A DNA stretch of 10,540 bases, taken from assembly GCA_016209155.1 (NCBI GenBank), contig JACQWU010000185.1, forward strand, positions 1 through 10,540. Reading direction: 5' to 3'. Numbering within the stretch: the stretch's first letter is position 1; each line of letters opens with the position of its first letter. Below are positions 5,974 through 10,540 of this stretch, piece by piece. The DNA is from Candidatus Desantisiibacteriota bacterium (lineage in GTDB: Bacteria; JACRDZ01). Below the pieces are notes generated by a model that was given only the letters and a program-made list of their open reading frames with translations, was not told the DNA's origin and did no database searches. The translations under genes and the position numbers were made by a program.

Positions 5974-6870
5974 TTATTCAGGAAACAGTAAAACAACAGT
6001 AGTAGTATTATGAAACCCGCTTAATTGTCCTAATTCCATGGCTATCTCACCATATGTTTCAAAACCTATAAAAGGTACTTTGAGTACTTTCCCAAATTCA
6101 TTAACTGCCCTGGAAAAATCGTCTCCTAATATTACTGCGCGGCAGACACAATCAAAAACTATTGCTCCTGCGAGCTTTACACCTCTGCAAGCCGAGAGCG
6201 CTATCTCAGCGGCTTTTCTTGCGGAAATAATTTGATCCTGCTGAGGGCTTTCCATTACTCGTAAAACCATCCCTTCGCTCATCGTACACGGAAAATTAAT
6301 AGGACCCTTTGTGGTTGTGGTTCCGCCAAGCCATCTTATTTTGTAATCTGTTCCGGTAAGAAGACCTGCTTCATATCGAGTGAAAAAAGTTTGTATTGCT
6401 TCAACATCTGTCATTTTATCAACATCAATTCCAATACTTTTAGCATTCTTCCTGGTATACTCTTTCCATACCTCAAAAGCAGGTTTACCATCAATCTCAT
6501 AGACAATATTTCCCTCTGCTTTAGTTATTGTCAGTGGCGGGCTGATTGGTGAATGTCCATGTTTTACACCAATCGCTACAGGTATTCGTGAAGCAATCAT
6601 GGCCAAACTAACAGCATTAGAAGAAATATCATTATTGTTAAATACTTTTGTCTCTTTAAATTTAAGATCGTCTCCGGCTGCTCCTCCTGAGAATTTTATA
6701 TTGGGACCTAACGCTTCAAGCGCAGACAGCACTGATTCTTCTCCCTTTCCTGCTAACCCGTCTATTAGCATTACCGCTGAAAGATATGGATAATTTTCTA
6801 TTATTGATGGGAATTCACTACTTGCATCCTTAAGTGTTTTTATTTCATCTTCTTTTAAACCTTTGCCCAT
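5974..6870 (-). CDS. FIST-domain sensory protein, N-terminally truncated
   Basis: The remaining 298 residues are the bulk of a FIST protein, a predicted small-ligand sensor family that often partners histidine kinases and c-di-GMP enzymes. Seen: the end of FIST_N with SGGAAGDD (61-68), then FIST_C with [16 protein letters not shown] (236-251), [19 protein letters not shown] and the closing [10 protein letters not shown]. Family members usually have roughly 380-400 residues, so about 80-100 N-terminal residues are missing. The ATG at 6868-6870 has no ribosome-binding site and lies inside a guanylate kinase fragment: the first codons (MGKG) come from gmk DNA in another frame, and a stop sits three codons upstream. 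Translation could occur only by coupling to the fragment, whose stop overlaps by 16 bases. The rest shows no frameshift, suggesting a recent break. It is probably a pseudogene. Confidence 0.85.
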
Positions 6871-7100
6871 TCCAAGAATTTATTTTTTTGTCTCAAGTGG
6901 ATAAATTCAGTTTTAGTGACAAAAAAATATTCCCGGCCATTTCTTTCACCCTCTCTTTTCGGCCGGGTAGTTACTGAAACAGAACACACCAAATCCGAAA
7001 AATGATGGAGAAGCTCTTTTCCTAGGGTGGTTTTTCCACAACCTGAAGGCCCGGAGATAACAAAGAGCAAACCTTTCCTCTGTGAAAACTTTTGAACCAA
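6855..7100 (-). pseudogene. gmk: Guanylate kinase 5' fragment
   Basis: The 81 residues match the N-terminal 40% of guanylate kinase (ATP + GMP to ADP + GDP; about 200 residues when complete). Seen: the P-loop [10 protein letters not shown] (16-25), the GMP-binding run [20 protein letters not shown] and the FLEWAKV segment. After that Val the family would continue HGNYYGT, but a TAA comes at once and the DNA changes to FIST sequence (junction about 6858-6866). The lid and the C-terminal half are absent, so it cannot be an active kinase. It begins with TTG at 7100, directly after the stop of the remA fragment and behind the purine-rich GAGGAGGAGAAGG. A complete gmk must exist elsewhere, since the enzyme is essential in most bacteria. 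Confidence 0.85.
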
Positions 7101-8138: not shown

Positions 8139-8205
8139 GATTATGCTCCCTGTATAATTTAAAATCGAACTATTCCTTGATGTTCTCCCTCGAGGTTGTA
8201 TATTT

Positions 8206-8270
8206 TAGATTGCTTTGCTTTCAGCTCGCAATAACGTCATTGCGAGAGCGTATGCTTTCTAAGCAATCTA
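8206..8270. repeat. Palindromic dispersed repeat, copy 1
   Basis: TAGATTGCTT at 8206-8215 pairs exactly with AAGCAATCTA at 8261-8270. Inside, CTCGCAAT at 8225-8232 pairs exactly with ATTGCGAG at 8239-8246 around a 6-base loop. The 65-base unit could fold as a long hairpin, like small non-autonomous repeats of the CGTCATTGCGAG type known from several bacterial genomes (from memory). It contains no gene. Confidence 0.7.
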
Positions 8271-8511
8271 ATCATTATTATTTTTAGATATCTCGAAGCT
8301 GGATAGTAATCCAGCCGCTACATAAATCCTCTATAACTAAATAAATTGATTTGACCCAGTCTGTGTGCCTCGAGGTAATTCATTGTCAAATAAAATTAAG
8401 GTGAAATTTTTTTGACAATATAAGCTAATGATAAATTATTTCGACATAATTATTTTAAATCTTTAATATACATTTTAAAATCGATAGCTTTTTTCCTTTT
8501 GCCCCAGTCCA

Positions 8512-8610
8512 ATTGTGAACGAAGTGAAGTAATCTCAAAACCAGCTATACGCGATGACATATATCACCATTGATATGGATTGCTTCGTCGTTTCACTCCT
8601 CGCAATGACA
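8512..8610. repeat. Palindromic dispersed repeat, copy 2 (composite)
   Basis: The left end ATTGTGAACGAAGTGAAG (8512-8529) runs on to TAATCTC, and the right end at 8577-8610 reads GGATTGCTTCGTCG then TTTCACTCCTCGCAATGACA. The two are degenerate inverted copies of one ATTGCGAG...GAAGCAATCTC unit, the same family as copy 1. Between them lies ATATCA-CCAT-TGATAT, a small perfect hairpin at 8561-8576. The left end is more diverged than the right. Confidence 0.65.
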
Positions 8611-8640
8611 GATTCCACCAATAACTGAGGCGGTACCGAA

Positions 8641-8715
8641 TGATAAATTATTTTCTTGACAATTATTTTTAATATAAATTATATTGTACTGCTGTAAAGT
8701 ATTTTAACTTTACAG
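8641..8715 (+). promoter_or_regulatory. lysA promoter with adjacent hairpin/operator
   Basis: TTGACA at 8656-8661, an 18-base spacer and TATATT at 8680-8685 make a strong sigma-70-type promoter. Where transcription should start there is a perfect inverted repeat, CTGTAAAGT (8692-8700), 6-base loop, ACTTTACAG (8707-8715). This could be a repressor operator or a hairpin at the mRNA 5' end. The same unit recurs at 10101-10175 in front of the ylxM-like gene, with about six substitutions and one indel over 75 bases. It leaves a leader of about 140 bases before lysA. I see no lysine riboswitch in it. Confidence 0.7.
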
Positions 8716-8836
8716 GAGTATATAAAAGAATTGCGAGCATAAGCAAAAAAAGGTTATAAAAAATTAATAATTAATTTTTAAGGTTTCTCTGTGGTTAATT
8801 TTTGATATTATCTCAAAATAGAACAGGATAAATTGT

Positions 8837-10087
8837 ATGATAGAAAAGAAACTTCCCTTTGCTAAAAAGCAAATAGAAAAAATTATGGAAAATTTTACAA
8901 CGCCTTTTCACTTATACGATGAAAAGGCAATTAGAGAGAATGCTAAAAGCCTGATTAAATCCTTTTCATGGGTAAACAATTTTAAAGAATATTATGCGGT
9001 AAAAGCCTGTCCTAATCCATATATTCTTAAGCTTTTAAAAGAGGAGGGTTTTGGCGCAGACTGTAGTTCATTGCCGGAGCTTTTACTTGCTGAAAAAGCA
9101 GGAATTAAAGGTGAAAATATAATGTTTACATCTAATGATACACCTGCTGAGGAATATGTAAAGGCTTTGGAATTGGGCGCGATAATTAATCTTGATGATA
9201 TAACTCATATTGATTTTCTTGAGAAAACAGCCGGAGTCCCTGATTTAATAAGCTTTAGATATAATCCGGGCCCTTTAAGAAGAGGAAATGCCATAATCGG
9301 TCAACCTGAAGAAGCTAAATACGGATTAACAAAAGATCAACTTTTCGAAGCGTATAAAACAGTCATGAATAAAGGTGTAAAAAGATTTGGATTACATACT
9401 ATGATAGCGTCAAATGAACTTAATCCGGATTATTTTGTAGAAACAGCAAAAATGTTGTTTGAGCTGGTAATAGAAATATATAAAAAATTTGATATCCGGA
9501 TAGAATTTGTTAATTTAGGCGGAGGTTTTGGTATCCCTTACAAATTAGATCAGAGTCCTCTTAACATACAATATATTGCTGATAATATAAAAAACGTTTA
9601 TGATAAAATTATAAAAGCTAATAAGCTTCATCCACTTAAAATATTTATGGAAAGCGGAAGAATGATAACAGGTCCATATGGATATCTGGTATCAAAAGTT
9701 ATACATATAAAAAATACTTATAAAAAATATGCCGGGCTTGATGCCTGCATGGCGGATCTCATGCGTCCGGCTTTATACGGCGCTTATCACCATATAACAA
9801 TTTTAGGAAAAGAAAATAATTCTTTAAATTATACTTATGATGTGACCGGTTCTTTGTGTGAGAATAACGACAAATTTGCAATAAATCGTAATCTCCCTGA
9901 GATTGATATCGGAGATATAGCAGTAATCCACGATTCAGGCGCGCATGGATATGCAATGGGATTTAATTATAACGGGAAACTCAGATCAAAGGAACTTCTA
10001 CTCAAAACAAATGGCGAAATAGAATTAATAAGACGCGCAGAAACAGTAAATGATTATTTCTCAACCCTGGATTTTTCAAAACTGTAA
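8837..10087 (+). CDS. lysA: Diaminopimelate decarboxylase
   Basis: Fold-III PLP enzyme that decarboxylates meso-diaminopimelate to L-lysine, the last step of lysine synthesis (416 residues, full length). Seen: the PLP lysine K56 in YYAVKACPNP; DCSSLPELLLAEKAG (75-89); H187 in FGLH; the glycine-rich phosphate loop NLGGGFGIP (226-234); ESGR (272-275) in the GRxxxGPYG region; and C341-E342 in VTGSLCENNDKFA, the equivalent of the CESGD substrate motif. The closing HDSGAHGYAMGFNYNGKLR also fits. The sequence resembles the LysA subgroup I know from clostridia rather than the E. coli type. The start ATG at 8837 has ACAGGA about 8 bases upstream. No other lysine genes are adjacent; it stands as a single unit between two copies of one promoter. 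A related decarboxylase with other specificity is possible but less likely. Confidence 0.9.
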   Translation: MIEKKLPFAKKQIEKIMENFTTPFHLYDEKAIRENAKSLIKSFSWVNNFKEYYAVKACPNPYILKLLKEEGFGADCSSLPELLLAEKAGIKGENIMFTSNDTPAEEYVKALELGAIINLDDITHIDFLEKTAGVPDLISFRYNPGPLRRGNAIIGQPEEAKYGLTKDQLFEAYKTVMNKGVKRFGLHTMIASNELNPDYFVETAKMLFELVIEIYKKFDIRIEFVNLGGGFGIPYKLDQSPLNIQYIADNIKNVYDKIIKANKLHPLKIFMESGRMITGPYGYLVSKVIHIKNTYKKYAGLDACMADLMRPALYGAYHHITILGKENNSLNYTYDVTGSLCENNDKFAINRNLPEIDIGDIAVIHDSGAHGYAMGFNYNGKLRSKELLLKTNGEIELIRRAETVNDYFSTLDFSKL

Positions 10088-10100
10088 TATTTAAAGATAC

Positions 10101-10175
10101 TGATAAAATTATTTTCTTGACAATTATTGTTAATATAAATTATACTATATTACTGTAAAGTATTTTTACTTTACA
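10101..10175 (+). promoter_or_regulatory. ylxM promoter, second copy of the lysA promoter/hairpin
   Basis: TTGACA at 10117-10122, an 18-base spacer and TATACT at 10141-10146 are followed by TGTAAAGT (10154-10161), a 6-base loop and ACTTTACA (10168-10175). It is nearly identical to 8641-8715, including the hairpin arms, while most differences fall between the -10 box and the hairpin. Conservation of both arms suggests the hairpin matters. It begins 14 bases after the lysA stop. Confidence 0.7.
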
Positions 10176-10202
10176 TATATGAAAGTATCAGGGAGGGCTG
10201 AT

Positions 10203-10540
10203 TTGCATCCTCAGAAGATGGCTGATTTAAACCTTTTGCTGGATTTTTATGGGGATCTGCTTACTGAACATCAGTATAATATTTTGTTTTTGTGGTGCAA
10301 TCATGATTTATCTTTTGGTGAAATATCCATGATTACTTCTTTATCAAGACAGGCTGTATATGACATCCTAAAGCAGGGACAAAAAAAACTGTATGATTTT
10401 GAAGAAAAACTGCATCTTTTAAAAGATAGAAAAAGCATAAAAAAAGATTTTAATAATCTTGATAAAAATGATGAATTAAAAAAATATCTTGATAGGGCTA
10501 TTAAAGACATTCAATTAAATGCTTTTTGTGGGATACAAAT
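10203..10540 (+). CDS. ylxM: YlxM/p13-like helix-turn-helix protein (3' end outside window)
   Basis: Putative DNA-binding protein of the YlxM family, usually encoded just before ffh and thought to modulate the signal recognition particle pathway. The visible 112 codons give LNLLLDFYGDLLTEHQYNI, then the helix-turn-helix LSFGEISMITSLSRQAVYDI with the family hallmark SRQAVYD, a predicted helix QKKLYDFEEKLHLL and a Lys-rich tail. Start: TTG at 10203-10205 has GGGAGGG 5 bases upstream and gives the same spacing to LDFY as B. subtilis YlxM. An ATG at 10179 lies next to the hairpin without a ribosome-binding site, and an ATG at 10218 is too far from one. The frame is open to the window end; ffh may follow, which is inference. 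Confidence 0.8.
   Translation, partial: MHPQKMADLNLLLDFYGDLLTEHQYNILFLWCNHDLSFGEISMITSLSRQAVYDILKQGQKKLYDFEEKLHLLKDRKSIKKDFNNLDKNDELKKYLDRAIKDIQLNAFCGIQ

Follow-up and report, generated by a model that had tools for sequence, protein, structure and literature searches.

Autorepressors act through palindromic operators placed over their own promoters, and ribosomal-protein operons are under autogenous control that acts on the mRNA leader. The fold of region 4 of sigma factors (sigma-4) reads the −35 box, TTGACA. Proteins of the YlxM/UPF0122 family (PF04297; structures 1S7O and 1XSV) are treated in the open-access papers found as accessory proteins of the signal recognition particle (SRP) or as putative helix-turn-helix (HTH) proteins; in Streptococcus mutans, according to PMC8546722, citing Williams 2014, YlxM has the accessory role, with Ffh and the SRP RNA as its binding partners. 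The ylxM promoter of Bacillus subtilis was chosen in one study after promoters with regulators annotated in DBTBS had been excluded (PMC7042180). Our search of open-access full text found neither autoregulation by YlxM nor a DNA target for it, and such a target is proposed here. In most Bacillota the gene adjoins ffh, and it does so in many phyla without cultured members.

The locus described here lies in contig C86 of a 3.08-Mb assembly (79% complete); the window is the whole stretch that was analysed, 10,540 bp. It carries, at the promoter of ylxM, a 22-bp inverted pair that we propose as a candidate operator for YlxM itself. As with autorepressors, the palindrome lies over the −35 or the +1 of the putative regulator's own gene and the targets are few; YlxM differs from typical autorepressors in having a sigma-4-like HTH, a link to the SRP, a half-site that can double as a −35 box and conservation over many phyla. 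With sigma-70 region 4 (for example, Escherichia coli sigmaE4 bound to DNA, PDB 2H27) it has the HTH fold and the Pfam signal in common, and the half-site cTTnACA is like TTGACA, but YlxM stands alone, without the other sigma regions, and its proposed site is a 22-bp inverted pair. The likeness to the autogenous control of ribosomal-protein operons is that an operon for protein synthesis or targeting would be balanced by its own product, although YlxM would act on DNA at initiation and the mRNA leader would not be involved.

Table 1 Features of the repeated promoter region, lysA and ylxM in the window
Feature	Position	Strand	Remarks
Promoter–operator unit before lysA (putative)	8645..8714	+	91% identical to 10106–10175
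lysA promoter	8656..8685	+	TTGACA 8656–8661, 18 nt, TATATT 8680–8685
Second candidate YlxM box, lysA promoter	8693..8714	+	TGTAAAGT-ATTTTA-ACTTTACA; exact match, in 70-nt repeat
122-nt stretch, box to lysA	8715..8836	+	Alignment with ylxM unit runs past the box
lysA, diaminopimelate decarboxylase	8837..10087	+	Between both boxes; TIGR01048 above cut-off
Promoter–operator unit before ylxM (putative)	10106..10175	+	70-nt repeat
ylxM promoter	10117..10146	+	TTGACA 10117–10122, 18 nt, TATACT 10141–10146
Candidate YlxM box, ylxM promoter	10154..10175	+	TGTAAAGT-ATTTTT-ACTTTACA; exact match
ylxM	10179..10538	+	Open at contig end; Pfam UPF0122 1.7e-20, NCBIfam YlxM

The preliminary description of the window had pointed to two near-identical promoter–hairpin units in the same direction, and these are confirmed as a direct repeat of 70 nt (8645–8714 and 10106–10175; 91% identical), the copies lying 1461 nt apart (Table 1). 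Each unit contains, as described, TTGACA, an 18-nt spacer, a −10 box and the perfect palindrome TGTAAAGT-N6-ACTTTACA, which begins 7 nt past the −10 box. None of the 6 differences between the copies touches the −35 box or either arm of the palindrome, in agreement with the earlier remark that the arms are unchanged while neighbouring bases differ. By chance, 0.09 matches to the palindrome with ≤3 mismatches are expected in the window, and none of the shuffled sequences gave two; in the whole assembly the only exact copies are these two (0.004 expected from base composition). The promoter class that we propose, with TGTnAAG-N8-CTTnACA in the ylxM core promoter or leader, is represented at 10154–10175. 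A weaker partial copy had also been placed near 8429, which we could not substantiate: the likeness amounts to 15 nt of identity (8427–8441 with 8639–8653) and a further 32 nt at 72%, and includes no palindrome. Searches of the window yielded no RNA element or riboswitch match in Rfam and no terminator.

A lack of further genomic copies near promoters had been named beforehand as evidence against a regulatory element. Literally this is what the genome search returned, there being no exact copy beyond the two, but it is misleading as a refutation because a genome normally has just one or two promoters with this operator. A search for a larger regulon in the window's genome found none, the three sites with 2 mismatches sitting within or beside unrelated genes. 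One of these three (G000:C128:3184–3205, corresponding to L003 1501–1522; TTTAAAGTTTTTTTACTTGACA) has its right half, CTTGACA, in the −35 position of a promoter-like sequence, upstream of an uncharacterised ORF of secreted type, and is a possible third, weak target. A reading of the palindrome as a CRP-like operator (AAAGT-N6-ACTTT) was considered and dropped, the conserved bases being TGTnAAG/CTTnACA.

The phylum is sparsely sampled and three other genomes were compared, of which G001 and G003 (bacterium STD1_102), the nearest genomes that have ylxM, belong to the same phylum as the window and to a different family. Each of these two has exactly one exact palindrome, situated between the −10 box and the ylxM ATG, with arms identical to those of the window at 16/16 positions; the DNA further upstream of ylxM shows 12–30% ungapped identity, which is about chance. 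Their ylxM promoters read TTGACA-N16/17-TATAAT or TATACT with the box 3 nt later, and ylxM stands directly before ffh in both, as in most other loci. The third genome, G002, has ffh and no ylxM, and the palindrome is absent genome-wide, the region upstream of ffh included. Judged from this pattern, the palindrome is evidently an old feature of ylxM, which makes the copy at lysA, by the same comparison, the secondary one.

The consensus TGTAAAG-N8-CTTTACA was derived within the window's phylum alone and then tested out of sample, on the ylxM loci of 27 genomic regions from other phyla. At spacer 8, 18/27 ylxM upstream regions had a match with ≤3 mismatches in 14 positions (≤2 mismatches in 10/27; 1 or 0 in 5/27); with any of the remaining spacers between 0 and 20, such matches were present in 0–3 of the 27 regions, and control tiles from the same loci gave 3/324 with ≤3 mismatches and 0/324 with ≤2 (upstream regions versus tiles, Fisher p about 9e-21). 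In most of the loci without a spacer-8 box, ylxM lies behind ffh or ftsY, where there is no room for a promoter (L124, L140 and L142), or apart from ffh (L139 and L148), or the palindrome has spacer 7 (L143 and L144) or takes the form of a 21-bp variant (L134). Clostridia carry the spacer-8 box in 24/30 loci, a count in which two loci cut at contig ends, with coordinates off (L238 and L253), stand as misses; 22 of the boxes have ≤2 mismatches, several are perfect, and a perfect spacer-7 form occurs in three more loci. In Bacilli, 13/30 loci show a single-mismatch site at spacer 8, usually together with another site, of spacer 7, in which the right half forms the −35 box; a spacer-7 site with ≤2 mismatches occurs in 10/30. 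Among the Bacilli examined, no box was found at Streptococcus-like and Staphylococcus-like loci, these labels being a reading of the protein sequences.

Genome-wide, the site is specific in the Bacilli. In one genus, all 19 genomes contain a single TGTMAAG-N8-CTTDACA site apiece, directly before ylxM–ffh in 10/10 fetched loci. Across 40 genomes of one family, TGTWAAG-N8-CTTWACA has 66 sites (8 for the reversed-pattern control), 63 of which have the sequence type of the ylxM or rpsP promoter, as was confirmed in 29 of the 30 loci fetched. At rpsP, the box (for example, TGTAAAGAAAAAAACCTTTACA) is situated in the ffh–rpsP gap with its right half positioned as the −35 box; in the Bacilli loci L215–L220 and L222 this second box, perfect or near-perfect, overlaps the rpsP −35 region, and S16 and the genes behind rpsP may, on this placement, share control with ffh in Bacilli. 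Among 290 diverse genomes, the strict pattern matched in 25; several of the matches away from ylxM fall within coding sequence, and in those of the 290 genomes that have no ylxM, none lies near ffh.

The product of the window's ylxM is a member of YlxM/UPF0122 by both sequence and fold: it scores 73.5 bits against PF04297 (cut-off, 22.7) and 80.4 against NCBIfam YlxM (cut-off, 80), and its AF2 model (pLDDT 90) matches 1S7O and 1XSV, with an rmsd to 1S7O of 0.9–1.3 Å over 79–80 columns. Below the YlxM structures come weaker matches of the model to sigma-4 domains, among them sigmaE4 in complex with −35 DNA. The Pfam cut-off for Sigma70_r4 is passed by the YlxM of L191, L177, L128 and L133, and that for r4_2 by the YlxM of L141; the window's own protein gives a weak 12.4 bits against Sigma70_r4. 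YlxM proteins (about 90–145 amino acids, HTH domain only) had no match to sigma factor region 2, and their recognition-helix motif, SRQAVxD, is strongly conserved. The start of ylxM is most likely at 10179, because the ATG, 3 nt past the box and continued by AAAGT, agrees with G001 and G003, in which the distance is the same and the ATG is followed by AAAGC; an alternative TTG start near 10203, with GGGAGG upstream, is possible. The contig ends inside ylxM, and the assembly's ffh is found on another contig, C127, which opens, ahead of ffh, with the final part of a ylxM-like ORF that differs from the window's ylxM, so a second ylxM copy or a binning mix is possible. A frameshift or in-frame stop near residue 253 interrupts this ffh, the only one in the assembly (L152; G000:C127).

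The site is conserved across phyla, sits in core promoters and is tied to ylxM, whose product has the sigma-4 fold. From these observations together we consider it highly probable that the palindrome is the YlxM operator, at which a dimer would repress ylxM–ffh (and in Bacilli also rpsP), and that the promoter was copied to lysA. That YlxM is the binder, that it binds as a dimer and represses, and that lysA responds, we infer from sequence comparison. YlxM, as a small HTH protein of the sigma-4 fold, would recognise −35-like half-sites—CTT(G/T/A)ACA resembles TTGACA—and a dimer would occupy the two inverted half-sites, TGTnAAG … CTTnACA, over 22 bp at its own promoter. The AAG and CTT elements lie 11 bp apart centre to centre, or one helical turn, a spacing that would suit an HTH dimer. 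Bound YlxM would block RNA polymerase, leaving the ylxM–ffh transcript autorepressed; the neighbouring rpsP promoter would be a second target in Bacilli, and in the window's genome the duplicated ylxM promoter and operator would now also drive lysA, bringing it under YlxM control. An operator of an undescribed regulon had been among the readings suggested at the outset, and the other genomes support it strongly, the regulon of the window's own genome being just two sites.

Where the site lies in the promoter bears on whether it works as DNA or RNA. In the 66 scored sites, the right half fits best as the −35 box in 28 and the site falls just after the −10 box in 35, with a tie in 3, and both positions are compatible with steric repression. 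Because it overlaps the −35 box or directly follows the −10 box, the site is best taken as a DNA operator rather than an mRNA hairpin. The preliminary description had offered a 5′ hairpin stabilising the lysA and ylxM transcripts, and in the window, with the palindrome 7 nt past the −10 box, the whole of it could be transcribed; but in G001 and G003 the distance is 3 nt, which puts the expected start inside the left arm, and in many genomes the site overlaps the −35 box and is thus untranscribed, so that what is conserved is not a hairpin in the mRNA. With a sequence that is conserved instead of covarying, and matches no Rfam family, such a hairpin is very improbable. An operator for a different conserved regulator of the SRP gene cluster, with YlxM a mere passenger in the operon, would agree with the accessory role given to S. 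mutans YlxM in PMC8546722; the rpsP box of Bacilli shows that the site can function apart from ylxM, and the Streptococcus-like and Staphylococcus-like loci without a box count against the YlxM reading. We nevertheless think this unlikely, as in many phyla the box goes with ylxM, the gene for an HTH protein: in G002, ffh is present and both ylxM and the box are absent, matches in ylxM-less genomes are not near ffh, and there is no box where ylxM stands directly behind ffh or ftsY, or apart from ffh.

Returning to YlxM as the probable regulator, we infer for the window's lineage a duplication of the ylxM promoter together with its operator, with lysA ending up behind one copy, which would put lysA under YlxM control through the copied operator. 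The gene has probably moved often, because its relatives are scattered (Spirochaetes, Methanolobus, DPANN archaea and others) and the nearest lysA, 85% identical and found in G003, lies at an unrelated place without the box. Downstream of the lysA box, TATATAAAAGAAT (about 8719–8731) is possibly what remains of a ylxM start (TATATGAAAGTAT), the comparison being TATATAAAAG against TATATGAAAG; we treat this as tentative because the stretch is short and AT-rich. The box-free place of the G003 lysA and the possible decayed start both favour the earlier proposal that the duplication was left as lysA arrived, though they do not fix the order of events. A promoter duplication that accompanied the arrival neutrally, giving the lysA copy no regulatory role, is a serious possibility, which we rate a little short of even: it fits the location of lysA in G003 and a repeat recent enough for 91% identity, but it applies to the lysA copy only and leaves the cross-phylum conservation of the ylxM copy unexplained.

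With one or two occurrences per genome, at the ylxM and rpsP promoters, the 22-bp site gives the obscure HTH protein YlxM a testable DNA target. If the YlxM operator reading is true, a sigma-4-like domain would act on paired −35-like elements to repress transcription, and the loop would have been lost in predictable lineages (Streptococcus-like and Staphylococcus-like). Going further, and with rather more doubt than belief, we suggest that YlxM acts widely as a repressor, sigma-4-like and standing alone, at paired inverted −35-like sites, that its free form reports the balance of the SRP and sets the transcription of ylxM–ffh and, in Bacilli, rpsP, which would give the SRP a feedback loop at the level of DNA, and that lysA, a lysine-biosynthesis gene, was captured by this switch in the lineage of the window. 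The role of free YlxM as such a reporter is speculation; it could have one because S. mutans YlxM, according to PMC8546722, binds Ffh and SRP RNA.

The window has other peculiarities around and upstream of the repeat. Stretches such as TTGCTTCGTCGTTTCACTCCTCGCAATGACAG at 8200–8290 and 8570–8620, which look like a dispersed repeat of the GTCATTGCGAGGAGTGAAACGACGAAGCAATC type, flank in two parts the region upstream of lysA. Between them, an inverted repeat at 8382–8419 (ATTGTCAAATAAAATT / AAATTTTTTTGACAAT; 88% paired) encloses another TTGACA upstream of lysA and has a spacing unlike that of the YlxM box. On the minus strand, an 81-amino-acid ORF (6855–7100) matches guanylate kinase and nothing beyond its first 73 positions out of 180, and the ORF that overlaps it (5974–6870) begins midway in a FIST_N domain; the pair looks like two truncated genes fused by a deletion, or an assembly chimera.
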